Assembly (NCBI GenBank): GCA_023264975.1
Contig: JAHFUS010000037.1
Location: 1 to 40,634, forward strand
Direction: 5' to 3'
Origin: Actinomycetes bacterium
Lineage (GTDB): Bacteria; Actinomycetota; Acidimicrobiia; Acidimicrobiales; GCA-2861595
DNA: 40,634 nucleotides
In this document: piece by piece, positions 8,053 to 40,274 of the stretch
Position numbering within the stretch: position 1 is the first letter of the stretch
Layout: every line of letters starts with the position of its first letter
The notes under the pieces: model-generated
Seen by the model: only the letters and a program-made list of their open reading frames with translations
Told to the model about the DNA's origin: nothing
The model's database searches: none
Translations under genes and position numbers: made by a program

Positions 8053-9194
8053 GTGAGAAGCGTTCGTTGTGGCACCGCCTGTACCACGGGGAGACAGCCT
8101 TCAACTTCGTGGGCCGCAGGAACACCTGGTTCGCCGTGTCGGGGATCATCATCCTCATCGGCTTCGTGTCGTTGTTCGCGCGGGGTCTCAACTTCGGCAT
8201 CGACTTCGAGGGCGGGACGGCCTGGGAGGTCAAGGCGCCCACGGAGTCGGTGGCCGAGGCACGCGACGCCATCCGGCCCTTGGGCCTGGGCGACGCCAAG
8301 GTCCAGCAGCTGGGCGGTGACACGATCCGGGTGCAGAGCGGCGTGACGGGGACCGAGGCGGAGCGCGCGAAGCAGCGCGATGCCGTCAGCGCCGCCCTGG
8401 CCAAGGCCGGCGGCGTCAACGTCAACACCGTGAGCGTGAACGAGGTCGGCCCCTCATGGGGTGGCGAGGTCACCAAGAAGGCCGAGCGGGCGCTGGTGTT
8501 CTTCTTCCTCGCCATCACCTTGTACATCACCCTGCGCTTCGAGTGGAAGATGGCGCTCGCCGCGCTGGCGGCCGTGGTCCACGACATCGCCGTCACCGTC
8601 GGCATCTACTCGTTGTCGGGCTTCGAGGTCACCCCGGCCACGGTGATCGCCTTCCTCACCATCCTCGGCTACTCCCTCTACGACACGATCGTGGTCTTCG
8701 ACAAGGTCGAGGAGAACACCAAGGGTCTGGCCGCCTCCGGGCGTATGACCTACGGCGACACGGTGAACCTGTCCATGAACCAGGTGCTCATGCGATCGCT
8801 GAACACCTCACTGGTGGCCATCCTGCCGATCCTGTCGGTGCTGGTGGTCGGCTCGTTCATCCTTGGGGCGACCACCCTCGAGGACTTCGGCCTGGCACTG
8901 CTCATCGGTCTTCTCACCGGTGCGTATTCGTCGATCTTCATCGCCTCGCCCATCCTCGCCATCGTCAAGGAGCGCGAGCCCCGGTACGCCTCGATCAAGC
9001 AACGGATCCTCGCCAAGGGTGCTGTCACGCCGCTCACGCCCGCAGCCGCGGCGGCCGGCGGAGTCACCGTGGCGGCCGCTGCGGGCAGCCGTGACGGCGA
9101 GAACGTGGGCGCCGGCGCCGCCGCTCGGGTGCCCCCGCGGCCAGGTGGTACCCGCCCGCCGCCCCGGCCCCGGAAGAAGGGCAAGAAGCGCTAG
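8049..9194 (+). CDS. secF: SecF, protein-export membrane protein
   Basis: SecF is the partner of SecD in the proton-driven export motor. The 381-residue product shows the N-terminal helix and NFGIDFEGGTAWEV motif, a short periplasmic loop, and the conserved membrane block: LAALAAVVHDIAVTVGIYSL, the FLTILGYSLYDTIVVFDKVEEN motif, and the RSLNTSLVAILPILSVLVVG segment. The last 50 residues are a Pro/Arg/Lys-rich cytosolic tail. The start is GTG overlapping the secD stop, with no other good start nearby. Confidence 0.95.
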   Translation: MSEKRSLWHRLYHGETAFNFVGRRNTWFAVSGIIILIGFVSLFARGLNFGIDFEGGTAWEVKAPTESVAEARDAIRPLGLGDAKVQQLGGDTIRVQSGVTGTEAERAKQRDAVSAALAKAGGVNVNTVSVNEVGPSWGGEVTKKAERALVFFFLAITLYITLRFEWKMALAALAAVVHDIAVTVGIYSLSGFEVTPATVIAFLTILGYSLYDTIVVFDKVEENTKGLAASGRMTYGDTVNLSMNQVLMRSLNTSLVAILPILSVLVVGSFILGATTLEDFGLALLIGLLTGAYSSIFIASPILAIVKEREPRYASIKQRILAKGAVTPLTPAAAAAGGVTVAAAAGSRDGENVGAGAAARVPPRPGGTRPPPRPRKKGKKR

Positions 9195-11974: not shown

Positions 11975-12969
11975 TTCGAGCTGGCCATTCCGCTTCTGGT
12001 CCCGGAAATCGACCGCTGGCGGTCGCTTTCCGATACCAGTACGAAGGACAGCCGCCGGCGCTCCGCCCGAACACGCGCGACGGCCTCCTGTGGCCGCCGC
12101 CAGATCTCGTCTTCGCTGATCCGCAGCACCGCCGTCCACCCTGCCGCCAGTAGCGCAGCGTCCCGCTGGCGGTCGTGCGCTCGATCCATCGGGCTGGTGT
12201 GATGGAGGTCACTGTCCACCTCCACGACGAGGCCGAGGGCGCGGTCCAGGAAGTCGACGCGGCCCACCCACTCGTGCCCGCCGATGTCGACCTGCCGTTC
12301 CAAAGGTGCTTCGCCGGCCTCATCGAGCAAGCGCGCGAATCGTGCTTCGAGCCCGCTCGCCGTCGGCACGTAGCCCTCGGGTCGGGCGGCGAGGATCGGC
12401 CTCAGTGCGGCCACGCCCTCCCGCCCGTGCGTCTCCGTCTCCCATAGCATCGTCCTCAGGCTGGTGAGCACCGACGGGCTCTTGGAGGACACCGTGTCCA
12501 GCACGCGTTCCAACCGTGCGGGGTGCAGGGTCGGGGCGATGTCGAGCAGGGTTCTGGCCAGCGTGGTGACCGGCAGTCCGCTCCAGTCTGTGACGTGGGT
12601 GGCAGGCAGGAGGCGGGGTCGGTGGACCGACGCCGAAGGCCCCTTCCGGTGAGACAGGGCGCGGTGGCGGCTCACCTCGATGCGTCCGGAGCCGAAGCTG
12701 AAGCCGGGCAGTCGCCAAAGCGCTGCTGCGGACCGGTGCGACACCACGCTGCCCGCTCCGGCATCGAGCACCGCGATCATCAGGCGTTGCCGGGTCGAGG
12801 GGGCCGAGCCGGTGAGGCGCAGGACCCGCTTGGTCGGAGCGTCCCAATCCGGGCCCGCCAGGCGGTTCCGCAGCGCCGGCGTCGTCGCCCCCAGTGCTCG
12901 AGCCTGTTCGCGGGACACCACGGCGTACTGCACCGCGGCCAGCGCCCGCAGGTCGTCGTCCAGTGGCAT
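11971..12969 (-). CDS. Endonuclease-fold protein with AbiEi-like N-terminus and DUF559 domain
   Basis: A 332-residue protein of a kind common in actinobacteria. The N-terminal third looks like the AbiEi antitoxin winged-helix region (VVSREQARALGATTPALRNRL). The C-terminal part carries the DUF559 Vsr-like nuclease core: GRVDFLDRALGLVVEVDSDLHH, with acidic residues in the right order, then RDAALLAAGWTAVLRISEDEI. Substrate and role are unknown; a nucleic-acid function is inferred from the fold only. The last 20 or so residues, after the RLSFVLVSE stretch, are encoded by a palindromic repeat whose second copy lies just upstream of the gene (13030-13073). The original C-terminus may therefore have been replaced. 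It overlaps the relA stop by 4 nt in convergent orientation. Confidence 0.8.
   Translation of the reverse strand: MPLDDDLRALAAVQYAVVSREQARALGATTPALRNRLAGPDWDAPTKRVLRLTGSAPSTRQRLMIAVLDAGAGSVVSHRSAAALWRLPGFSFGSGRIEVSRHRALSHRKGPSASVHRPRLLPATHVTDWSGLPVTTLARTLLDIAPTLHPARLERVLDTVSSKSPSVLTSLRTMLWETETHGREGVAALRPILAARPEGYVPTASGLEARFARLLDEAGEAPLERQVDIGGHEWVGRVDFLDRALGLVVEVDSDLHHTSPMDRAHDRQRDAALLAAGWTAVLRISEDEIWRRPQEAVARVRAERRRLSFVLVSESDRQRSISGTRSGMASSN
11996..12039. repeat. 44-nt palindromic repeat, copy 1 (relA/DUF559 junction)
   Basis: Two 21-nt arms separated by TG match at 18 of 21 positions. The outer ends are CTGGT and ACCAG, and GGAAA and TTTCC lie further in. It occupies the 3' end of the minus-strand DUF559 gene, 22 nt past the relA stop, and could serve as a two-way terminator for the convergent pair. 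A second copy of identical length and design is at 13030-13073. Confidence 0.8.
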
Positions 12970-13029
12970 GGGCCACAGCCAACCAGCCGCGTGTGACAGT
13001 TGGCGTGGTCGCTACGCCACCCGCTCGTT

Positions 13030-13073
13030 CTGGTATCGGAAATCGACCGGTGGTGGTCGATTTCCGGTACCAG
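13030..13073. repeat. 44-nt palindromic repeat, copy 2 (upstream of DUF559 gene)
   Basis: The same design as copy 1: 21-nt arms around TG, 18 of 21 positions complementary, CTGGTATCGGAAATCGACC on the left arm. It lies in the 226-nt gap between the divergent DUF559 gene and hisS. Apart from this element and the hisS -10 hexamer, nothing else is visible in that gap. Confidence 0.8.
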
Positions 13074-13181
13074 AAGCCGGCACGGGGTTCAGGCGGGCGC
13101 CCTGAGCGCCCGATCACGGTCGGTCCGGCAACCGGTTGGCGGGGGCCGGAAAACGGCCCGGAGGGGGGCGACGGGCCCTAC

Positions 13182-24913: not shown

Positions 24914-25024
24914 CACCGCCCCGCGGCCCGCCGGCGTCGTCGTCGCACCCCGGCGCCATAGTGACGGCTTCCTTGCGTGCTTCTCGTTTCACAGAACGGG
25001 GGAGGGTTGGCCCGAGACGGCCAC

Positions 25025-25052
25025 TGAAGTCGGCCGCATCGCATGCCGATAC
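25025..25052 (+). promoter_or_regulatory. Sigma-28/WhiG-like promoter before the DUF4388 gene
   Basis: TGAA, 16 nt, GCCGATAC. The -10 part matches the FliA/SigD/WhiG consensus GCCGATAA at seven of eight positions. It lies in the 172-nt gap after aroE, 33 nt before the DUF4388 start. Four other sites in this window share the 16-nt spacing, all next to pilus genes. Confidence 0.6.
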
Positions 25053-25085: not shown

Positions 25086-26162
25086 GTGTCGCTGCAGGGA
25101 ACGCTGGAGACCATTCCGCTCCCGGATGTGCTGGCGCTTCTTGCTGCCACGAGGAAGACCGGTGAGCTGTGCATCTCGGGAGCCAGGGGTGACGGCCGAC
25201 TGTGGCTGGACGCCGGCAAGGTGGTGGGCGCCGACGTTCCACGCGCCGCCACGCCCGTCGACGCCCTGTTCGAGCTGCTGCGCCTGACCGCAGGGTCGTT
25301 CACCTTCGGCGCCGGCGCGCCGCCGGCCGGGCCCGGCGCCGCGTTCGCCGTCGACGCCCTCCTGGCCGAGGCGCAGGAGCGCCTGAGCGCATGGCAGGCG
25401 ATCGAGACGGTCGTCCCGTCGATGGAGTGCACGCTCCGCCTCATCCCCGAGCTGGGCCCGGACAGTGTGACCGTATCCCGCCAGCAGTGGAAGGAGCTGG
25501 TCGCCGTGGCGGCCGGCGGCGACATCAACGGCGCCATGAAGAACCTCTCCATCGGCGAGTTCGACGCCTGCCGCACCGTGAAGAACCTGGTCGACGCCGG
25601 CCTCGTCCAGGTGGGAAAGGCGCCGGCGCAGCCAGCGCCCGCCCCTGAGGCCTCCCGCCCGGCATCACCCGCCCCGACGCCTGCTGCGCCCGTCAAGGCG
25701 CACGAGCCCGCCGAGTCCCCCGAACCGGCCCCGCCGCGACGGCCGGCGCTGACCACCGGGCCCGTGCCCGACTCGCCGACCACTTCGCCCCGGCCGGCGC
25801 CGCGCCCCGCGCCGGTGCCCGGCCGTGCACCTGTCGCCGTCTCCGCTGCGCCCGCTCATGCCAGTGCCGCTCCTGCCCTCGTCGCCAACGGCGGCAGGAG
25901 TGCCGCACTTCGTCAAGAGCCCGAATCCGCAGCCAAGGGTGAGGCCGCAGAGGCACTGGTCCAGCATCTGACTACCCTGGGAAAGGCACACGCCAAGGCC
26001 GCACCTGATCGTGCCGGCTCCGCCTCCGCCAAGGGCGCAGCCGGTGACCAGCCGCCGGCCTCGAAGGCAGACCACGAGGTCGAGGGGAGTGTCGAGGGCA
26101 ACGGCGACGAACCTATCAACCGGGGCATGCTCCTCAAGTTCCTTTCGTCGGTCCGTCCGTAG
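25086..26162 (+). CDS. DUF4388 (PATAN-like) domain protein, first gene of the pilus locus
   Basis: A 358-residue protein. Residues 1 to about 95 match the DUF4388 domain: LQGTLETIPLPDVLALLAATRKTGELCIS, then LWLDAGKVVGADV and a phenylalanine strand TAGSFTFG. A second small helical segment (residues 135-180, IGEFDACRTVKNLVDAGLVQ) looks like a winged helix. The remainder is a long Pro/Ala-rich, probably disordered region ending in a short conserved-looking GMLLKFLSSVRP tail. DUF4388 proteins occur in two-component, gliding and pilus systems, so a regulatory or scaffold role in pilus assembly is inferred. GTG at 25086 has GGAGG 5 nt upstream and a sigma-28-like promoter before it. Confidence 0.78.
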   Translation: MSLQGTLETIPLPDVLALLAATRKTGELCISGARGDGRLWLDAGKVVGADVPRAATPVDALFELLRLTAGSFTFGAGAPPAGPGAAFAVDALLAEAQERLSAWQAIETVVPSMECTLRLIPELGPDSVTVSRQQWKELVAVAAGGDINGAMKNLSIGEFDACRTVKNLVDAGLVQVGKAPAQPAPAPEASRPASPAPTPAAPVKAHEPAESPEPAPPRRPALTTGPVPDSPTTSPRPAPRPAPVPGRAPVAVSAAPAHASAAPALVANGGRSAALRQEPESAAKGEAAEALVQHLTTLGKAHAKAAPDRAGSASAKGAAGDQPPASKADHEVEGSVEGNGDEPINRGMLLKFLSSVRP

Positions 26163-26222
26163 GGCGCCAGAGGCCGGTTCCGTCCCTTGTCGCGTCGCGA
26201 TTTCACCGGTGACGGCGCCTCG

Positions 26223-27923
26223 ATGACCATGGAACGAACCATGGGGAGGTCCGACGGCAACAGGCTTGGCGCCCTCCTCGTCCAAGCCGACCTGCTCACC
26301 CAGGCCCAGCTCGACCGGGCGCTGGCGGAGCAGGCCCAGACGCAGCGGTCTCTCGGCCGCATCCTGATCGACGACGGACTCGTCACCGAGGGCGACCTGG
26401 TGGCGATGCTGTCGCGCCAGATCGGCCTCGAGTTCGTCGACCTGGCCGACTTGACCATCGATCCGAGTGCGGCCGGACTGATCAGCGCGTCGCTGGCCAA
26501 GCGCTACCAGGCCCTCCCCCTCGGCTGGGACGAGGACCGCCTGGTGGTGGCCATGGCCGACCCGTCGAACGTGTTCGCCATCGACGACATCCGCACCATC
26601 ACCAAGCGGGAGCTGAAGGTGGTGGTGGGCACCAGCGCGGCGATCCTCGACGCCATCGAAAAGTACCACCGCATGGACGGCGAGGCCGAGAACATCTCGG
26701 CCCAGGCGGTCAGCGAGACGGTGGCCGAGGAGGACCTCGCCAACATCAGGGAGGTCACCGAGGACGCACCAATCGTGAAGCTGGTGAACATGCTCATCAG
26801 CCAGGCGGTGGCCGACCGGGCGTCCGACATCCACATCGAGCCCGGTGAGCGCGACCTGCGGATCCGCTACCGCATCGACGGCGTGCTCCACGAGGTGATG
26901 CGCCCCCCGAAGAGCATCCAGTCGGGGATCATCTCCCGGCTCAAGATCATGGCGGAGATCAACATCGCCGAGCGCCGCATCCCCCAGGACGGCCGGGTGA
27001 ACGTGAAGCTGGCCGGCAAGCCGGTGGACCTGCGCGTCGCCACCCTTCCCACCGTCTACGGCGAGAAGATCGTGATGCGCATCCTCGACAAGTCGACGGC
27101 CCTGCTCAAGCTGAGCGACCTCGGCTTCCTGCCGGACTCCATGGAGGCCTACGAGCGCTCCTACAAGAAGCCCTACGGCACGATCCTGGTGACCGGGCCC
27201 ACCGGATCGGGCAAGTCGACCACCCTCTACGCCACCTTGAACATCCTCAACGAGGACACCAAGAACATCATCACGGTGGAGGACCCGGTGGAGTACCGCC
27301 TGGCCGGGATCAACCAGGTCCAGACGAACAACAAGGCGGGCATGACCTTCGCCGCCGCCCTCCGCTCGATCCTGCGGTCCGACCCCGACATCGTGCTGGT
27401 GGGCGAGATCCGCGACAAAGAGACGGCCACGATCGCCATCGAAGCCGCCCTCACCGGCCACCTCGTGCTGTCCACGCTGCACACCAACGACGCCGCCACC
27501 ACGCCCACCCGGCTGATCGAGATGGGCGTGGAGCCGTTCCTCGTGGCCAGCGCCCTCGACTGCATCGTGGCCCAGCGCCTCGCCCGCCGGCTGTGCGACA
27601 AGTGCTCCGAGGGCTACGTGGCAACGACCGACGAGCTTGCCCACCTGGGCTGGGACGTCGAGTCGAACGAGGAGACGGTGGAGCTGTTCCGCCCCGTGGG
27701 TTGCACCTACTGCGGCAAGACTGGGTACCGGGGCCGTTTCGCCATCCACGAGGTGCTCACCGTGACCGAGGAGATCGAGCGCCTCATCGTGGACCGGGAG
27801 CACTCCGAGGACATCAAGAAGATGGCAGTGGCCCAGGGCATGCTCACCCTTCGCCAGGCCGGCCTCGTGCACGTCACCAAGGGCACCACGTCGATCGAGG
27901 AGATACTCAGGGTCGTTGCCTGA
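26223..27923 (+). CDS. pilB: PilB/GspE-type pilus assembly ATPase with N-terminal MshEN domain
   Basis: This hexameric ATPase powers pilus extension. The 566-residue product starts with an MshEN (T2SSE_N) module: RLGALLVQADLLTQAQLDRAL (split in two for clarity: RLGALLVQAD, LLTQAQLDRAL) and SLGRILIDDGLVTEGDLVAM. These fit the paired RLGxxLL..G motifs that bind cyclic di-GMP in MshE, although the first has Asp where Gly is usual. The ATPase domain has Walker A TGPTGSGKST (about residue 325), the Asp and His boxes, Walker B SDPDIVLVGEIRD, and a zinc finger CDKC...CTYC (about 457-498) typical of PilB and absent from PilT. ATG at 26223 is chosen; a TTG at 26187 is less likely, and no strong ribosome-binding site is seen. 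Confidence 0.93.
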   Translation: MTMERTMGRSDGNRLGALLVQADLLTQAQLDRALAEQAQTQRSLGRILIDDGLVTEGDLVAMLSRQIGLEFVDLADLTIDPSAAGLISASLAKRYQALPLGWDEDRLVVAMADPSNVFAIDDIRTITKRELKVVVGTSAAILDAIEKYHRMDGEAENISAQAVSETVAEEDLANIREVTEDAPIVKLVNMLISQAVADRASDIHIEPGERDLRIRYRIDGVLHEVMRPPKSIQSGIISRLKIMAEINIAERRIPQDGRVNVKLAGKPVDLRVATLPTVYGEKIVMRILDKSTALLKLSDLGFLPDSMEAYERSYKKPYGTILVTGPTGSGKSTTLYATLNILNEDTKNIITVEDPVEYRLAGINQVQTNNKAGMTFAAALRSILRSDPDIVLVGEIRDKETATIAIEAALTGHLVLSTLHTNDAATTPTRLIEMGVEPFLVASALDCIVAQRLARRLCDKCSEGYVATTDELAHLGWDVESNEETVELFRPVGCTYCGKTGYRGRFAIHEVLTVTEEIERLIVDREHSEDIKKMAVAQGMLTLRQAGLVHVTKGTTSIEEILRVVA

Positions 27924-27934
27924 AACGCCGATAC
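27907..27934 (+). promoter_or_regulatory. Sigma-28/WhiG-like promoter before pilT
   Basis: TCAG, 16 nt, GCCGATAC, overlapping the end of pilB. The -10 ends 6 nt before the pilT ATG, so a transcript from here would be essentially leaderless. It could provide extra pilT expression independent of pilB. Confidence 0.5.
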
Positions 27935-27940
27935 GGAGTC

Positions 27941-29530
27941 ATGCAGGCTGCATCGCGACGTCTCGGTGAGTTCCTGGTCGACCGGAAGGTGCTCTCGAGA
28001 GATGCCCTCGAGAGCCTCCTGATCCGGGAGGCGAACGACGGCGTGTCGTTGTCGAAGATGCTCCTCGCCGAGGGGGTGGTCGCTGAGAAGGACCTGGTGG
28101 CGGCTGTCGCCTCACAGGTAGGCATCGCCTTCATCGACTTCGATCACATCGCCGTCAACCCGGCGCTCGACCGCCTCGTCCCCGTCGAACTGGCCCGCCG
28201 GCACCTCGCCATCGCCGTCGACTTCGAGGGCAGCGAGCTGGTGGTGGCCATGGTGGACCCGAGCGACCAGGACGCCGTCGGGGAGATCGAGACGGCCACC
28301 GCCTGGACCGTGCGCCCGGCCATCGCCGTGCGCAGCGAGCTGCTCCGCATCGTGTCGTCGATGTACGGGAGCGCCGAGGACGGCTCCAGCAATTCGCCGA
28401 CCGACGAGCAGGTCCCCATCGAGGCCGGGGCGGAGATGACCGACCTCGGCCTCCCGGAGGCGGAGCTGCACGTGAACGACCTGCTCGAGCGGGTCGTCGA
28501 CCTCGGCGGTTCCGACCTCCACCTCACCTCCGGCATCCCTCCCGCCGTGCGCGTCCACGGAGACATCACCTCGCTCACCGAGTTCCCGTCGATGACGGCG
28601 TCGGAGATCCGTCGGATGATCTACGCCATCCTCACCCAGAAGCAGCGGGAGCGCTTCGAGAACGACCTCGAGCTCGACACGTCGCACTCGGTCCCCAACC
28701 TGGGCCGCTTCCGTGTGAACGTGTTCCTCCAGCGCGACGCCGTGGGCGCCGTCATGCGTGTGATCCCGTTCAACGTGGTGCCGTTCGACAAGCTCGGCCT
28801 GCCGCAATCGGTGCTGCAGTTCGCCCATCTGCCCCGTGGCCTCGTGCTCGTGACCGGGCCGACTGGATCGGGTAAGTCGACGAGCCTCGCCTCCATGGTC
28901 GACATCATCAACGCCTCCAAGCCCGTCCACATCATGACGGTCGAGGACCCCATCGAGTTCCTCCACCAGCACAAGATGGCGGTGGTGAACCAGCGTGAGG
29001 TCGGCGAGGACACCTACTCCTTCGCAAACGCCCTGAAGCACGTCCTGCGCCAGGACCCCGATGTGATCCTGGTCGGTGAGATGCGCGACCTCGAGACGAT
29101 CCACACCGCCCTGACGGCGGCGGAGACCGGCCACCTCGTCTTCGCCACCCTGCACACGCAGGACGCGCCGCAGTCGATCGACCGCATCATCGACGTCTTC
29201 CCGCCCCACCAGCAGCAGCAGGTGCGTACCCAGCTGGCCTCCGCCCTCCAGGGCATCGTCACCCAGCAGCTGCTCCCCACCAGCGACGGGCGGGGACGTG
29301 CGGTGGCGGCCGAGGTGCTCGTGGCCACGCCGGCGGTGCGCAACCTCATCCGTGAGGGCAAGACCCACCAGATCTACTCGGCCATGCAGGCCGGCGGGAA
29401 GTTCGGGATGCAGACGATGGACATGTCGCTGGCCGGACTGGTGAAGAAGGGCGCCATCACCATGGAGATCGCCCTCGAGCGGTGCGCCAACGAACCGGAC
29501 TTCCGTCGCATGTGCGGCGGCGGGTCATAA
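27941..29530 (+). CDS. pilT: PilT-type ATPase with an N-terminal MshEN domain
   Basis: PilT ATPases depolymerise the pilus and drive retraction. The 529-residue product is about 150-180 residues longer than classical PilT. The additional N-terminal part is an MshEN-like module (RLGEFLVDRKVLSRDALESL and SLSKMLLAEGVVAEKDL, then VGIAFIDFD). The rest is PilT: residues about 180-200 with GGSDLHLTSGIPPAVRVHG, Walker A TGPTGSGKSTSLASM (about 305), the AIRAGGE-like region, Walker B QDPDVILVGEMRDLETI and the HTALTAAETGHLVFATLHTQ His box. No PilB-type zinc finger is present. It starts 17 nt after pilB. Whether it retracts pili or acts as a second extension motor cannot be settled by sequence. Confidence 0.88.
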   Translation: MQAASRRLGEFLVDRKVLSRDALESLLIREANDGVSLSKMLLAEGVVAEKDLVAAVASQVGIAFIDFDHIAVNPALDRLVPVELARRHLAIAVDFEGSELVVAMVDPSDQDAVGEIETATAWTVRPAIAVRSELLRIVSSMYGSAEDGSSNSPTDEQVPIEAGAEMTDLGLPEAELHVNDLLERVVDLGGSDLHLTSGIPPAVRVHGDITSLTEFPSMTASEIRRMIYAILTQKQRERFENDLELDTSHSVPNLGRFRVNVFLQRDAVGAVMRVIPFNVVPFDKLGLPQSVLQFAHLPRGLVLVTGPTGSGKSTSLASMVDIINASKPVHIMTVEDPIEFLHQHKMAVVNQREVGEDTYSFANALKHVLRQDPDVILVGEMRDLETIHTALTAAETGHLVFATLHTQDAPQSIDRIIDVFPPHQQQQVRTQLASALQGIVTQQLLPTSDGRGRAVAAEVLVATPAVRNLIREGKTHQIYSAMQAGGKFGMQTMDMSLAGLVKKGAITMEIALERCANEPDFRRMCGGGS

Positions 29531-29551: not shown

Positions 29552-30766
29552 ATGTCCGACACCTACACCTACAAGGTCCGGGACAAGCAGGGCAAGGTCC
29601 TGCAGGGCTCGCTGGACGCCGACAGCACCACGCTGGTCGCCAACAAGCTGCGCCAGATGGGCTACGTGCCGCTCGCCATCGACAAGAAGTCGGCCGGCAT
29701 GAAGACCGAGATCAAGCTCCCCGGAGCCGGCAAGCCCAAGATCAAGGACATTGCCGTCTTCAGCCGCCAGTTCGCGGTGATGATCGACTCCGGCCTGTCC
29801 CTCCTGCGCGCGCTGTACATCCTGGAGGACCAGACCGAGAACAAGGTCCTGGCCGGGATTATCGCCGAGGTGCGCCAGGACATTGAGAAGGGCACCTCCC
29901 TCTCCCAGGCCCTGGGACGGCACCCCAAGACGTTCAACCGCCTCTACGTCTCCATGGTCCGTTCCGGGGAAACGGGCGGCAACCTCGACTCCGTGCTGGT
30001 CCAGCTGGCCGACGTCATCGAGAAGCAGGTCGAGCTGCGCCAGAAGATCAAGTCGGCCATGACCTACCCGGTCGCCGTCCTGTGCCTGGTGGTCCTCATC
30101 CTGGTCGCCATGCTCATCTTCATCGTGCCCACCTTCAAGGGCCTGTACGACGACCTCGGCGGCACCCTGCCGCTGCCCACGCGGGTCCTCCTGGTGGTGT
30201 CATCGCTCATGGTGAAGGGCCTGCCCGTGGTGATCCTCGGCACCGTCGGGTTCATGTGGGGCTTCAAGCGCTGGATCCAGAGCGACAAGGGCCGTGGCCA
30301 CTGGGACACGTTCAAGCTGAAGGTGCCGGTGTTCGGCAAGCTCGTCCGCCTGATCGCCCTTACCCGGTTCTCCAAGACCCTGGCCTCACTGCTCCGCAGC
30401 GGCGTGCCCATCCTGGAGTCGCTGGAGATCACGTCGGACACCGTGGGCAACACGGTGGTGGCCAAGGCGGTGAAGGACGTCCAGGACGGCGTGAAGCAGG
30501 GCGAGCCCATCGCCAAACGGCTGGAGAACCACCCGGTCTTCCCCCCCATGGTGGTGCAGATGCTGGCTGTGGGCGAGGAGACCGGCGCCGTCGACACCAT
30601 GCTCGAGAAGGTGGGTGACTTCTACGAGCGGGAGGTGGAGGCGACGGTGGACGCCCTCACGTCGCTCCTCGAGCCCTTGCTTATCTGCGTCCTCGGCGGC
30701 ACCGTCGGCGCCATGGTGGTCTCCCTCTACATGCCGATGTTCAACATCATCAAGCTCATCAAGTAG
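29552..30766 (+). CDS. pilC: PilC/GspF-type inner-membrane pilus platform protein
   Basis: PilC is the membrane platform on which PilB and PilT act. The 404-residue product has the N-terminal YKVRDKQGKVLQGSLDADS strand region and two GspF domains, first ...IAVFSRQFAVMIDSGLSLLR and second LIALTRFSKTLASLLRSGVPILESL, each with the GE.TG signature (SGETGGNLD and GEETGAVD). Three membrane helices are visible around residues 170-195, 215-240 and 375-400, and the end is MYMPMFNIIKLIK-like (LYMPMFNIIKLIK). Length is standard. It starts 21 nt after pilT with a purine-rich site upstream and is followed by a strong hairpin. Confidence 0.95.
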   Translation: MSDTYTYKVRDKQGKVLQGSLDADSTTLVANKLRQMGYVPLAIDKKSAGMKTEIKLPGAGKPKIKDIAVFSRQFAVMIDSGLSLLRALYILEDQTENKVLAGIIAEVRQDIEKGTSLSQALGRHPKTFNRLYVSMVRSGETGGNLDSVLVQLADVIEKQVELRQKIKSAMTYPVAVLCLVVLILVAMLIFIVPTFKGLYDDLGGTLPLPTRVLLVVSSLMVKGLPVVILGTVGFMWGFKRWIQSDKGRGHWDTFKLKVPVFGKLVRLIALTRFSKTLASLLRSGVPILESLEITSDTVGNTVVAKAVKDVQDGVKQGEPIAKRLENHPVFPPMVVQMLAVGEETGAVDTMLEKVGDFYEREVEATVDALTSLLEPLLICVLGGTVGAMVVSLYMPMFNIIKLIK

Positions 30767-30781
30767 TACCTCGCAGGTCCG

Positions 30782-30813
30782 GGAGGGACGTCACGCTGTC
30801 GTGGCGTCCCTCC
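30782..30813 (+). terminator. Strong hairpin terminator after pilC
   Basis: GGAGGGACG pairs perfectly with CGTCCCTCC, and TCAC with GTGG inside it, around a GCTGTC loop: a 13-bp stem with one G-T pair. It begins 15 nt after the pilC stop. There is no T-run, as is common in high-GC actinobacteria. It would separate the pilBTC message from the pilin message. Confidence 0.7.
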
Positions 30814-30866
30814 TCGCGCGTCCGGGTGCCGGTAGAGGTTTCCTGCTGCAGTTCCCTAAATCGGCC

Positions 30867-30894
30867 TCAAGGAATGGTCGGCAAGAGGCGATAG
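30867..30894 (+). promoter_or_regulatory. Sigma-28/WhiG-like promoter of the riboswitch-pilin unit
   Basis: TCAA, 16 nt, GGCGATAG: six of eight -10 positions match GCCGATAA. Transcription would begin near 30900, immediately before the cyclic-di-GMP aptamer, which strengthens the assignment. Confidence 0.6.
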
Positions 30895-30904
30895 TCATGG
30901 TGCG

Positions 30905-31012
30905 AGCTACTCCTGAGAAAGGCAAACCCGCCGAGAGGCGGGGGCGCAAAGCCACGGAACCGACCCTCACAACGGCGTGAGGAAGGAAAGCCGAGCTGCC
31001 TGGATGGTCGCC
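30905..31012 (+). promoter_or_regulatory. Cyclic-di-GMP-I (GEMM) riboswitch upstream of the first pilin
   Basis: The stretch contains the GEMM-I core in order: GGCAAACC (30921-30928), a CCGCC-GAGA-GGCGG stem with GNRA tetraloop, CGCAAAGCC (about 30945-30953), ACGG, a second hairpin (CCCTCAC...GTGAGG, about 30964-30982) and the closing AAGCCGAGCTGCC segment. These are the defining conserved parts of the family that binds cyclic di-GMP between the two stems. The exact outer ends (P1) are uncertain. It lies in the 331-nt gap between pilC and the first pilin, behind a sigma-28-like promoter, and is not repeated before the second pilin. It probably controls pilin expression by cyclic di-GMP. Confidence 0.88.
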
Positions 31013-31029
31013 ACCGGTGGTTGCCGGAG

Positions 31030-31057
31030 GCGGGCCGAGAGGGTGGGACCGGCCCGC
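31030..31057 (+). promoter_or_regulatory. Hairpin between riboswitch and pilin: expression-platform candidate
   Basis: GCGGGCC and GGCCCGC form a 7-bp GC stem around a 14-nt loop, starting about 18 nt after the aptamer and ending 40 nt before the pilin start. No T-run follows. It may be the switch's terminator or attenuator arm; how it exchanges with the aptamer was not worked out. Confidence 0.4.
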
Positions 31058-31097
31058 ACATCCATTGACATCCACTTGAACCAAGGAGATTCCCAGA

Positions 31098-31601
31098 ATG
31101 CTCGACATGCTCCGCAAGCGCCAGGAGGACGAAGAGGGCTTCACCCTCATCGAGCTCATGGTCGTCGTCCTCATCATCGCCATCCTGCTGGCGATCGCCA
31201 TCCCGACCTTCCTCGGCGCCCGTGAGCGTGCCCAGGACCGGGCCGCCCAGTCCAACCTCCGCAACGCCCTCACGGCTGAGAAGGTCTTCTACACCGACGC
31301 CCAGGCATACACCACCGACAGCGGCGCCGGCGCCATCAAGGGCATCGAGCCCTCGCTGACCTTCGCCGCCGCCGCCGCCCCCGCCACCGTCGGCACCATC
31401 TACATCGACGTCGTTGCCAACGGCACCACGGCCGATGCCATCGTGACCCTCGGTGCCAAGAGCGCCTCCGGCAAGTGCTACTACCTCAAGGACGTCGCCA
31501 CGGTCGGTACCACCGCCACTATCGCCGGCACCTTCTACGGCGGCGGCACCACCACGTGCGCCGCAGTCGCTCCGGCTCAGGCCACGGGTGCCAAGTGGTA
31601 G
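31098..31601 (+). CDS. pilA: Type IV pilin, copy 1
   Basis: A 167-residue prepilin. The 14-residue leader (RKRQEDEEG end) is cut after Gly14, giving mature Phe1 and the essential Glu5 (FTLIELMVVVLIIAILLAIA). The helix continues through ARERAQDRAAQSNLRNALTAEKVFYTDAQ, typical of actinobacterial and clostridial pilins. The globular part is rich in Ala, Thr and Gly, with only two cysteines (127 and 154), which probably form the C-terminal disulfide loop. AAGGAG at 31083-31088 lies 9 nt before the ATG. Expression is likely governed by the upstream riboswitch. It differs from the second copy at only five positions: D11, V63, S86, K121 and I142 here. Confidence 0.95.
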   Translation: MLDMLRKRQEDEEGFTLIELMVVVLIIAILLAIAIPTFLGARERAQDRAAQSNLRNALTAEKVFYTDAQAYTTDSGAGAIKGIEPSLTFAAAAAPATVGTIYIDVVANGTTADAIVTLGAKSASGKCYYLKDVATVGTTATIAGTFYGGGTTTCAAVAPAQATGAKW

Positions 31602-31630
31602 TCGGTTGAACCTCAGCGTCTGACGTAGGA

Positions 31631-31658
31631 AACGGGAGCGGCCTCGGCCGCTCCCGTT
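31631..31658 (+). terminator. Terminator hairpin after pilin copy 1
   Basis: AACGGGAGCGGCC pairs perfectly with GGCCGCTCCCGTT (13 bp) around TC, followed by TTC. It begins 29 nt after the stop. The following 204 nt up to the second pilin hold no gene; only the last 35 nt or so repeat the leader of the first copy. Confidence 0.8.
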
Positions 31659-31862
31659 TCGCGGCCGGGTCGTGCCACCTGTTCGGACTGCGGCCCGCGA
31701 TCCCCGACGAACGCTCAACCCAAGTTCCTTTGTACCGAGAACGTCAGAGCAACTGCGTGTTGGTCGTCCTCGTCCCGCACTAACTGAGGAATTCCAGAGG
31801 TCTGATCCAGCTCGACGGGATTGCTATCCATCGATATCCATTGAACCAAGGAGAACTTCCGA

Positions 31863-32366
31863 ATGCTCGACATGCTGCGAAAGCGCCAGGAGAACGAAGA
31901 GGGCTTCACCCTCATCGAGCTCATGGTCGTCGTCCTCATCATCGCCATCCTTCTGGCCATCGCCATCCCGACCTTCCTCGGCGCCCGTGAGCGTGCCCAG
32001 GACCGGGCCGCCCAGTCCAACCTCCGCAACGCCCTCACGGCTGAGAAGATCTTCTACACCGACGCCCAGGCCTATACCACCGACAGCGGCGCCGGCGCCA
32101 TCAAGGGCATCGAGCCTGCGCTGACCTTCGCCGCCGCCGCCGCTCCCGCCACCGTCGGCACCATCTACATCGACGTCGTTGCCAACGGCACCACGGCCGA
32201 TGCCATCGTGACCCTCGGTGCCCAGAGCGCCTCCGGCAAGTGCTACTACCTCAAGGACGTCGCCACGGTCGGTACCACCGCCACCGCCGCCGGCACCTTC
32301 TACGGCGGCGGCACCACCACGTGCGCCGCAGTCGCTCCGGCTCAGGCCACAGGTGCCAAGTGGTAG
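31863..32366 (+). CDS. pilA: Type IV pilin, copy 2
   Basis: A 167-residue prepilin identical to the first copy except for D11N, V63I, S86A, K121Q and I142A. Leader, Glu5, helix and the two cysteines are conserved. A CCAAGGAGA ribosome-binding site precedes the ATG, and the CATCGATATCC-TTGAACC leader bases are close to those of copy 1, but the riboswitch is absent. Its promoter is unclear: TCAA, 15 nt, ACCGAGAA (about 31714) is a weak sigma-28-like match. It may provide a cyclic-di-GMP-independent pilin supply. The near identity, including the downstream terminator, indicates recent duplication or ongoing gene conversion. Confidence 0.95.
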   Translation: MLDMLRKRQENEEGFTLIELMVVVLIIAILLAIAIPTFLGARERAQDRAAQSNLRNALTAEKIFYTDAQAYTTDSGAGAIKGIEPALTFAAAAAPATVGTIYIDVVANGTTADAIVTLGAQSASGKCYYLKDVATVGTTATAAGTFYGGGTTTCAAVAPAQATGAKW

Positions 32367-32395
32367 TCGGTTGAACCTCAGCGTCTGACGTAGGA

Positions 32396-32423
32396 AACGG
32401 GAGCGGCCTCGGCCGCTCCTGTT
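32396..32423 (+). terminator. Terminator hairpin after pilin copy 2
   Basis: The same 13-bp hairpin as after copy 1, with one C-to-T change producing a G-T pair. The 50 or so bases between stop and hairpin are also identical to those after copy 1. Confidence 0.8.
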
Positions 32424-32450
32424 GCGCGATACGCCTGCAGCCCGTCCCCC

Positions 32451-35284: not shown

Positions 35285-35312
35285 TCAATCTCGGTCTCGC
35301 AGCTGCCGATAC
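35285..35312 (+). promoter_or_regulatory. Sigma-28/WhiG-like promoter of the minor-pilin operon
   Basis: TCAA, 16 nt, GCCGATAC, in the 91-nt gap between pilD and the first minor-pilin gene. The -10 ends 10 nt before the ATG. GAGAGG lies between them, partly within the likely leader. Confidence 0.6.
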
Positions 35313-39107: not shown

Positions 39108-39674
39108 TCAGGCCGGTGGCAGGAGATCCTCGACGTCGATGACGATGTCCGGGAACGCTTCGGGCGCAACGCCGGCCCCAGGGCCGAACGAACGCCTGTC
39201 CGTATAGGCGCCGCCCTCCGGTCGCAGGCAGACCTCGACTGCGCCGGCGACCAGGTTGACCAGCCAAACCTCGCCCACGCCCGCCGCCGCGTAGAGCGGG
39301 AGCTTGTGCCGGGCGTCCCAGGCGGCGGTGGTGTCGCCGACCTCGACGAGGAGGAGGATATCGCCAGGCGTGGGATGGGCGCCCGCGTAGTCGTCGCGGC
39401 GCGGCCGGAGCAGGGCGATGTCGGGCTGCGGTTCGGACAGGTCGTCCAGCCGGACGGGGTTCTGCACCAGGACGATGGCCCGGGCACCGAGGCTCTGCTG
39501 GAACAGCCGGTCGAGACGCGTGACGCACGCCGCGTGGTGGGAGCCGATCGGCGCCATCTCGATGATCTTCCCCTGGAGCAGTTCGACCCGTTCGTCGGGG
39601 CCGAGTATCCCCGTGTCGGCCATCAGGTAGTAGTCCTCGACCGTGAAACGGTGGGCAACGGGCTGGACCGCCAT
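39108..39674 (-). CDS. Uma2 (DUF820) family endonuclease-fold protein, intact copy
   Basis: A 188-residue protein of the Uma2/DUF820 family, with a PD-(D/E)XK restriction-like fold of unknown cellular role. Visible are HRFTVEDYYLMADTGILGPDERVELLQGKIIEM, the QPDIALLRPR strand with Asp, ILLLVEVGDT with Glu, and the LYAAAGVGEVWLVNL segment with a Lys before it (RHKLPLY). The acidic and lysine residues are in the expected order, so it may be active. The start at 39674 has CGTGCCATGGC context. A truncated second copy at 39954-40274 shares both coding and upstream DNA. Confidence 0.87.
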   Translation of the reverse strand: MAVQPVAHRFTVEDYYLMADTGILGPDERVELLQGKIIEMAPIGSHHAACVTRLDRLFQQSLGARAIVLVQNPVRLDDLSEPQPDIALLRPRRDDYAGAHPTPGDILLLVEVGDTTAAWDARHKLPLYAAAGVGEVWLVNLVAGAVEVCLRPEGGAYTDRRSFGPGAGVAPEAFPDIVIDVEDLLPPA

Positions 39675-39796: not shown

Positions 39797-39952
39797 GTGA
39801 CCGACTGCCCGGACTACGAGGACAATCGGATCCTCGAGTGCGCCTCAGGCAGCGGATCCATGCTCATCGTCAGCGATGACGCAAACCTCACCTCGATGTC
39901 GCCGTGGCGCGGCACGCCCGTCGTCATTACCGGCGAGTTCGTCAAGAGGACT
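39797..39952 (+). pseudogene. C-terminal fragment of a PIN-family toxin
   Basis: About 50 codons read CPDYEDNRILECASGSGSML, then IVSDDANLTSMSPWRGTPVV and ITGEFV. This fits the last third of the COG1569/PIN_3 toxin family, with its (D)P.DN..L..A, (V)SGD.DLL and F(R)GI.I.TP.EFL order. The N-terminal part is missing, and the fragment ends abruptly at the junction with the truncated Uma2 copy. It is not expected to be functional. Confidence 0.5.
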
Positions 39953-39953
39953 G

Positions 39954-40274
39954 ATGCATGTCGCCAGGCCTGGGATGGGCGCTCGCGTAGTTGTCGTGGC
40001 GAGTACGGAGCAGGGCGACGTCGGGCTGCGGTTCGGACAGGTCGTCCAGGCGGACAGGGCCCTGCACTGAGACGATCGCTCGCCCGCCCAGCTGTTGGTG
40101 GAACAGCCGGCTCAGCTGTCTGACGCAGCCGGCGTGGTGGGAGCCGATGAGCGCCACCTCGATGATCTCCCCCTGGAGCAGTTCGACCCAATCGTCGGCA
40201 CCGAGGATCCCGGCGTCGGCCATCCGGTAGTAGTCCTCGACGGTGAAACGGTGGGCAACGGGCTGGGCCGCCAT
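39954..40274 (-). pseudogene. Truncated second Uma2 copy
   Basis: From an ATG at 40274 the frame gives about 105 residues matching the intact Uma2 protein (HRFTVEDYYRMADAGILGAD, then LLQGEIIEV and QPDVALLRTR). It stops at the position equivalent to 39359 in the intact gene, after the PRPGD residues, where the PIN fragment begins. The upstream 80 or so bases also match, so promoter and 5' half were copied together. The catalytic Glu and Lys strands are missing. About 218 nt separate it from pilM. Confidence 0.8.

Follow-up and report, generated by a model that had tools for sequence, protein, structure and literature searches.

The best documented riboswitch upstream of a pilin gene is C. difficile Cdi-2-4, which precedes pilA1 and is a class II c-di-GMP riboswitch, not a GEMM-I (class I) one (PMC6366702). 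In Streptomyces and Rubrobacter, c-di-GMP-bound RsiG sequesters the sigma factor WhiG, and the RsiG-WhiG pair has been described as unique among sigma/anti-sigma systems in being a target of c-di-GMP (PMC8325347). The Rubrobacter study, which used a flagellar/WhiG consensus of -35 TAAA and -10 GCCGATAA, locates WhiG promoters within the pilus cluster and says nothing of riboswitches (PMC8325347). The MshEN domain of pilus ATPases is a c-di-GMP receptor (PMC5013675).

The 40,634 nucleotides analyzed here (the window) make up all of contig C133, one of 139 contigs in a genome of 3.78 Mb, and they carry a type IV pilus cluster (Table 1). The reading that we prefer, at a probability of roughly 0.6, is that this cluster belongs to a WhiG/RsiG regulon in which the first of two nearly identical major pilins, pilin 1, would carry an extra GEMM-I layer of control and pilin 2 would be its riboswitch-free daughter.

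Elsewhere in the window, a 53-nt imperfect palindromic element occurs twice, at 11992-12044 and 13025-13077 (87% alike), and the two copies flank an ORF with a weak DUF559/REase-like match. Two Uma2-family genes (PF05685) are adjacent on the minus strand at 39108-39674 and 39942-40274, the second of them seemingly truncated.

Table 1. Features of the pilus cluster, in window coordinates
Feature	Position	Strand	Basis
Predicted WhiG-type promoter of the DUF4388-pilB-pilT-pilC operon, strongest in the window	25025..25052	+	PSSM 21.4, rank 1; strict pattern
DUF4388 protein, encoded first in the pilus operon	25086..26162	+	PF14332
PilB-type assembly ATPase with MshEN (c-di-GMP-binding) domain	26187..27923	+	PF00437, PF05157
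PilT-type ATPase with MshEN, start approximate	27887..29530	+	PF00437, PF05157 (59.2 bits)
PilC platform protein	29552..30766	+	PF00482
Predicted WhiG/FliA-type promoter of pilin 1, TCAA-N16-GGCGATAG, ~16 nt before the aptamer	30867..30894	+	PSSM, pattern, conservation in sister G001
c-di-GMP-I (GEMM-I) aptamer, RF01051	30911..31003	+	cmscan 60.8 bits, gathering score 35
Pilin 1 expression platform, with ribosome-binding site	31004..31097	+	sequence; alignment of ten pilin leaders
Pilin 1, the riboswitch-bearing type IV prepilin gene (N_methyl)	31098..31601	+	PF07963
Hairpin after pilin 1, 15-bp perfect, possible terminator	31629..31660	.	repeat search
Candidate WhiG-type promoter of pilin 2 (weaker), TCAA-N15-ACCGAGAA	31715..31741	+	PSSM 11.4
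Copy 2 leader end, duplicated, with ATCCAT element and Shine-Dalgarno sequence (31848-31853) and without aptamer	31826..31862	+	unit alignment; Rfam scan
Pilin 2, near-identical daughter without riboswitch	31863..32366	+	PF07963
Second copy of the post-pilin hairpin	32394..32423	.	repeat search
Predicted WhiG-type promoter before minor-pilin genes (ORF from 35323)	35285..35312	+	PSSM 20.3, rank 2

The riboswitch leader and the pilin pair

The original prediction put a GEMM-I aptamer before the first pilin and none before the second, and both halves are borne out. The match upstream of pilin 1 spans the full length of RF01051 (model positions 1-87, E 1.2e-9) and is the sole above-threshold Rfam match in the window, and the predicted stretch at 30905-31057 corresponds to this aptamer together with the platform hairpin after it. 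A permissive scan of 31602-31900, between the pilins, gives nothing GEMM-like at E<=10, which also rules out a degenerate aptamer upstream of copy 2. The pilin 1 aptamer has a G at the core position in GGCAAAC, which we take to indicate c-di-GMP rather than cGAMP as the ligand. Two other GEMM-I aptamers (G001:C79:31012-31085, locus L031/L185, and G003:C8:503-577, locus L182) have GAGCA in place of GGCA in their cores; this G-to-A change presumably falls at the position that separates cGAMP from c-di-GMP aptamers.

The platform of pilin 1 contains a GC hairpin (31030-31057) and a ATCCATTG element (31060-31067), followed by the Shine-Dalgarno sequence AAGGAG at 31083-31088. We found no U-tract terminators on the plus strand of 30767-32450, the pilin 1 leader included; translational control is therefore favored, and the riboswitch probably acts on the initiation of translation. 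Shine-Dalgarno accessibility with P1 forced showed no consistent direction, in a comparison where the start codons of W1, G005 and G018 were wrongly chosen. In the ten aligned pilin leaders, TGCGAGC where the transcript begins could pair over a long range with GCTCGCA downstream of the platform. By eye this candidate helix is mostly kept, apart from G-U changes and a mismatch (W1, G001); two-sided changes were not seen among these ten leaders, and we do not claim the helix.

Both pilins have a prepilin leader and N-methylation motif (PF07963 over its cutoff). They differ, just as predicted, at exactly five of 167 residues (D11N, V63I, S86A, K121Q and I142A), and their coding sequences differ at 16 of 504 nt. 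Since D11N precedes the processing site (...EEG^FTLIEL), four differences are left between the mature pilins. An assembly artefact is ruled out for the pair: a single contig holds both copies, their flanks differ, and so do 16 of their nucleotides.

The duplicated block comprises the leader end, the coding sequence and the 3' hairpin, and begins at ~31060 for copy 1 and ~31826 for copy 2, with 261 nt between the two genes. Its start in copy 2 corresponds to the point directly 3' of the riboswitch expression platform; because the tandem duplication began just after the riboswitch, copy 2 kept the ribosome-binding site and coding sequence and not the aptamer. In the sister species G001 the same place holds pilB-pilT-pilC, one aptamer and one pilin. 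The two copies are separated by a dS of 0.08 (0.081), against 0.44 to the sister species, and by a dN of 0.016. All four polarizable residue differences have the ancestral state in pilin 1 and the derived state in copy 2, and 8 of the 11 polarizable nucleotide changes are derived in copy 2, the other 3 in copy 1. Judged by the low dS and this polarity, copy 2 is a recent daughter of pilin 1. A transfer of the spacer between the pilins from another place was rejected, as it has no convincing homolog elsewhere in its own genome or in ten relatives. Among the top matches of a pilin-alignment search, the nearest named relatives come from MAGs assigned to Acidimicrobiaceae and to other Actinobacteria, most of the other matches being unrelated pilins.

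Copy 2 could also be a transient duplicate of no regulatory meaning that is heading for loss or for re-homogenisation by gene conversion, as its absence from the sister species and the concentration of changes in it would suggest. We find this somewhat unlikely, as the copy 2 ORF, Shine-Dalgarno sequence and hairpin are all intact, and another genome, G012, also has tandem major pilins, in that case each with its own aptamer.

GEMM-I aptamers occur at the pilin locus of eight genomes (G000, G001, G003, G005, G012, G014, G017 and G018), in which 10 of the 11 major-type pilins (assigned by eye from their N-terminal sequences) have an aptamer of their own; pilin 2 is the exception. Divergent minor pilins beside the GEMM-I major pilins in these genomes are without aptamers. 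The notion that GEMM riboswitches before pilins are known from elsewhere calls for some caution: the C. difficile pilA1 riboswitch belongs to class II. Within this order, GEMM-I before major pilins is common. At locus L065 (G012:C51:60191-63249), three tandem major pilins each have a GEMM-I aptamer and an adjoining fourth, divergent pilin has none. A further aptamer of that genome (L176, G012:C6:50749-50836) lies only ~12 nt upstream of a prepilin-like ORF whose ribosome-binding site falls within the probable 3' strand of P1, a placement that would suit an OFF switch.

Predicted WhiG-type promoters in the cluster and across the phylum

Promoters were sought with a strict pattern and with a PSSM trained without the window's genome. 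On the plus strand of the window the strict pattern matches only three times (~25025, 30867 and 35285), each time upstream of a pilus transcription unit. Within the 12 kb of sequence from the sister G001, its only matches are at the two orthologous sites covered; the G001 match orthologous to the 35285 promoter is at 8465. The predicted pilin 1 promoter agrees with the WhiG/FliA consensus (-35 TAAA, a spacer of 14-17 nt, -10 GCCGATAA, at most three mismatches) at 9 of 12 positions, and its PSSM score of 18.3 (rank 4 over both window strands) was reached by none of 2000 shuffles. The PSSM matches at ranks 1, 2 and 4 start at 25023, 35283 and 30865; rank 3 falls within pilC on the opposite, minus strand and is likely to be spurious. 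In the aligned pilin leaders, a conserved CTCAAGTCG-N-GGCGATA block that resembles the flagellar/WhiG consensus lies directly upstream of the aptamer. All of these promoters are predictions from a FliA-family consensus, which WhiG would share with any other sigma28-type factor.

For a wider survey, the published WhiG consensus was scored in the 90 nt upstream of each GEMM-I aptamer, with a threshold of at least 9 of 12 and with related sequences included in the counts. In this order 36 of 49 aptamers (16 genomes) reach the threshold, as against 1/49 on the reverse strand and 0/49 in the 90 nt downstream of the aptamer, and the mean score is 9.0 against 7.1 for dinucleotide shuffles. The cobalamin riboswitches of the same relatives provide a further control, with a WhiG-type site at 0/27 (Fisher p=8e-11). 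For GEMM-I loci from other parts of the phylum the figure is 19 of 27 (one a perfect 12 of 12; reverse strand 1/27), a rough fraction because these loci are the top-scoring RF01051 matches and include related genomes. Spacing between promoter and aptamer is tight, mostly 10-25 nt.

This genome's three remaining GEMM-I aptamers all stand before genes for secreted CAP-domain proteins (PF00188; L001 117-989 on the minus strand, L003 ~1571-2854 and L004 1650-2186 on the plus strand), and by eye many GEMM-I loci of the relatives and the wider phylum also seem to lie upstream of CAP-like proteins. These genes bear on whether the association follows merely from a shared gene class, that is, from motility and surface genes being served by a flagellar-type sigma factor anyway. 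GEMM genes are indeed known as motility and surface genes (PMC6366702), and WhiG-like sites are found at riboswitch-less pilins of relatives too (G017_a, G017_b, G001b and G022_b, the last with the promoter followed directly by an aptamer-free leader). Against this, many of the linked genes encode secreted CAP proteins, which are not motility genes, and the spacing to the aptamer is tight, so that we regard a mere sharing of gene class as rather doubtful. We put at about even odds the broad statement that the GEMM-I riboswitches of Actinomycetota are generally built onto WhiG-type promoters, c-di-GMP reading the same gene twice, at RsiG and the sigma factor and then in the RNA leader. The pairing would be a new arrangement of known parts: judged largely by titles, we found no published report joining RsiG-WhiG to GEMM-I riboswitches in the literature searched, a search that most subscription papers lay outside.

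Proposed control of the two pilins by c-di-GMP

The genome encodes a WhiG-family sigma factor (C41:19547-20221; TIGR02479, 270 bits against a curated cutoff of 189.6) and an RsiG protein with two RsiG domains (58.5 and 33.1 bits, 80.3 for the whole protein). Its motif 1, EGALSYLRRLVQVRLD, is an exact E-X3-S-X2-R-X3-Q-X3-D, and in motif 2 the Q is replaced by F. RsiG is found in 14 of the 16 GEMM-bearing genomes, the two without it being the MAGs G005 (85% complete) and G014 (70%); as it is also found in 29 of 43 genomes without GEMM-I, RsiG and GEMM-I are not strictly linked. In the pilus operon the PilT-type ATPase has an MshEN domain as PilB does, which may make retraction, like extension, responsive to c-di-GMP.

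In the preferred reading the pilus cluster would be a WhiG (sigma28-type) regulon, with RsiG holding the sigma factor at high c-di-GMP, and the major pilin would have an extra sensor, the GEMM-I riboswitch, right at the 5' end of its transcript. Expression of pilin 1 would then be gated twice by c-di-GMP, at transcription through RsiG-WhiG and in the leader through the riboswitch, and pilin assembly would form a third gate through MshEN. Because WhiG is shut off by c-di-GMP in Streptomyces and the riboswitch here stands behind a WhiG-like promoter, this one messenger probably acts on the riboswitch-bearing genes at two levels. Were this true of Actinomycetota GEMM-I leaders, a single second messenger would control both the synthesis and the use of the same transcript. 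The response would depend on the sign of the riboswitch: if c-di-GMP turns it OFF, the layers would agree and give a sharpened OFF switch, and if ON, they would oppose each other and give a band-pass response. CAP-domain secreted proteins and pili would be joined in one regulon, the narrow range of promoter-aptamer spacing would be explained, and there would be a testable prediction for many genomes, GEMM-I being present in 135 of 396 sampled.

Pilin 2, arising by duplication of the segment from just behind the riboswitch to the 3' hairpin, would probably be served by a weaker promoter of WhiG type that lies in the new spacer. The candidate listed in Table 1 is the best in the spacer and is suggestive only: its -10 element, ACCGAGAA, is weak, its shuffle p is 0.015, and its score is reached by 7 of 794 control tiles. 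Alternatively, pilin 2 may have no working promoter and be expressed only by read-through from pilin 1, in which case, with a translational riboswitch, it would be riboswitch-free on the same mRNA. The copies are close together, and the intergenic hairpin, which no U-tract follows, may be a poor terminator; that hairpin is nonetheless a perfect 15-bp one, and with a promoter-like site in the spacer as well, we think read-through as the sole source unlikely.

The original prediction had seen in the pair a switchable and a non-switchable source of essentially the same pilin, pilin 2 being constitutive with respect to c-di-GMP and setting a floor for pilus production at any level of it while pilin 1 is switched. 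Part of this stands, as the aptamer is found before copy 1 only, the proteins are nearly the same, the ORF and ribosome-binding site of copy 2 are intact, and dN between the pair is well below dS. Insensitivity of copy 2 to c-di-GMP does not follow, and a floor at any level is improbable: the spacer holds a candidate WhiG-type promoter, no sigma70-like promoters were found in 30767-32450, the genome has both WhiG and a twin-motif RsiG, and MshEN is present on PilB and PilT. Given that promoter, WhiG/RsiG and MshEN, pilin 2 would escape the riboswitch layer only, and it is probably not c-di-GMP-blind. On the preferred reading the window holds a ready-made natural comparison: a major pilin that would have both layers lies beside a near-identical one that would have the sigma layer only.

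Comparison with described systems

The pilin 1 aptamer is an ordinary member of RF01051, with a full-length match over the gathering score and a place in a pilin 5' leader. Its setting differs from that of ordinary members in three respects: the aptamer is 16 nt behind a predicted WhiG/FliA-type promoter, the platform is long (94 nt) and without a terminator, and a near-identical pilin without an aptamer adjoins. Like C. difficile Cdi-2-4, it belongs to a predicted c-di-GMP riboswitch upstream of a major type IV pilin, whereas Cdi-2-4 is a class II, transcription-terminating ON switch from another phylum, and neither a pilin duplicate nor a WhiG/RsiG layer is described for pilA1 in that account (PMC6366702). 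As in the described MshEN pilus ATPases, PilB has the domain; here, unlike there, the PilT-type ATPase has it too (PMC5013675). With the Rubrobacter RsiG-WhiG system the cluster shares WhiG-type promoters in a type IV pilus cluster and an RsiG in the genome, and it differs in that RsiG is of the twin-motif form with one motif residue altered and in that a GEMM-I riboswitch is stacked behind the predicted WhiG-type promoter (PMC8325347).
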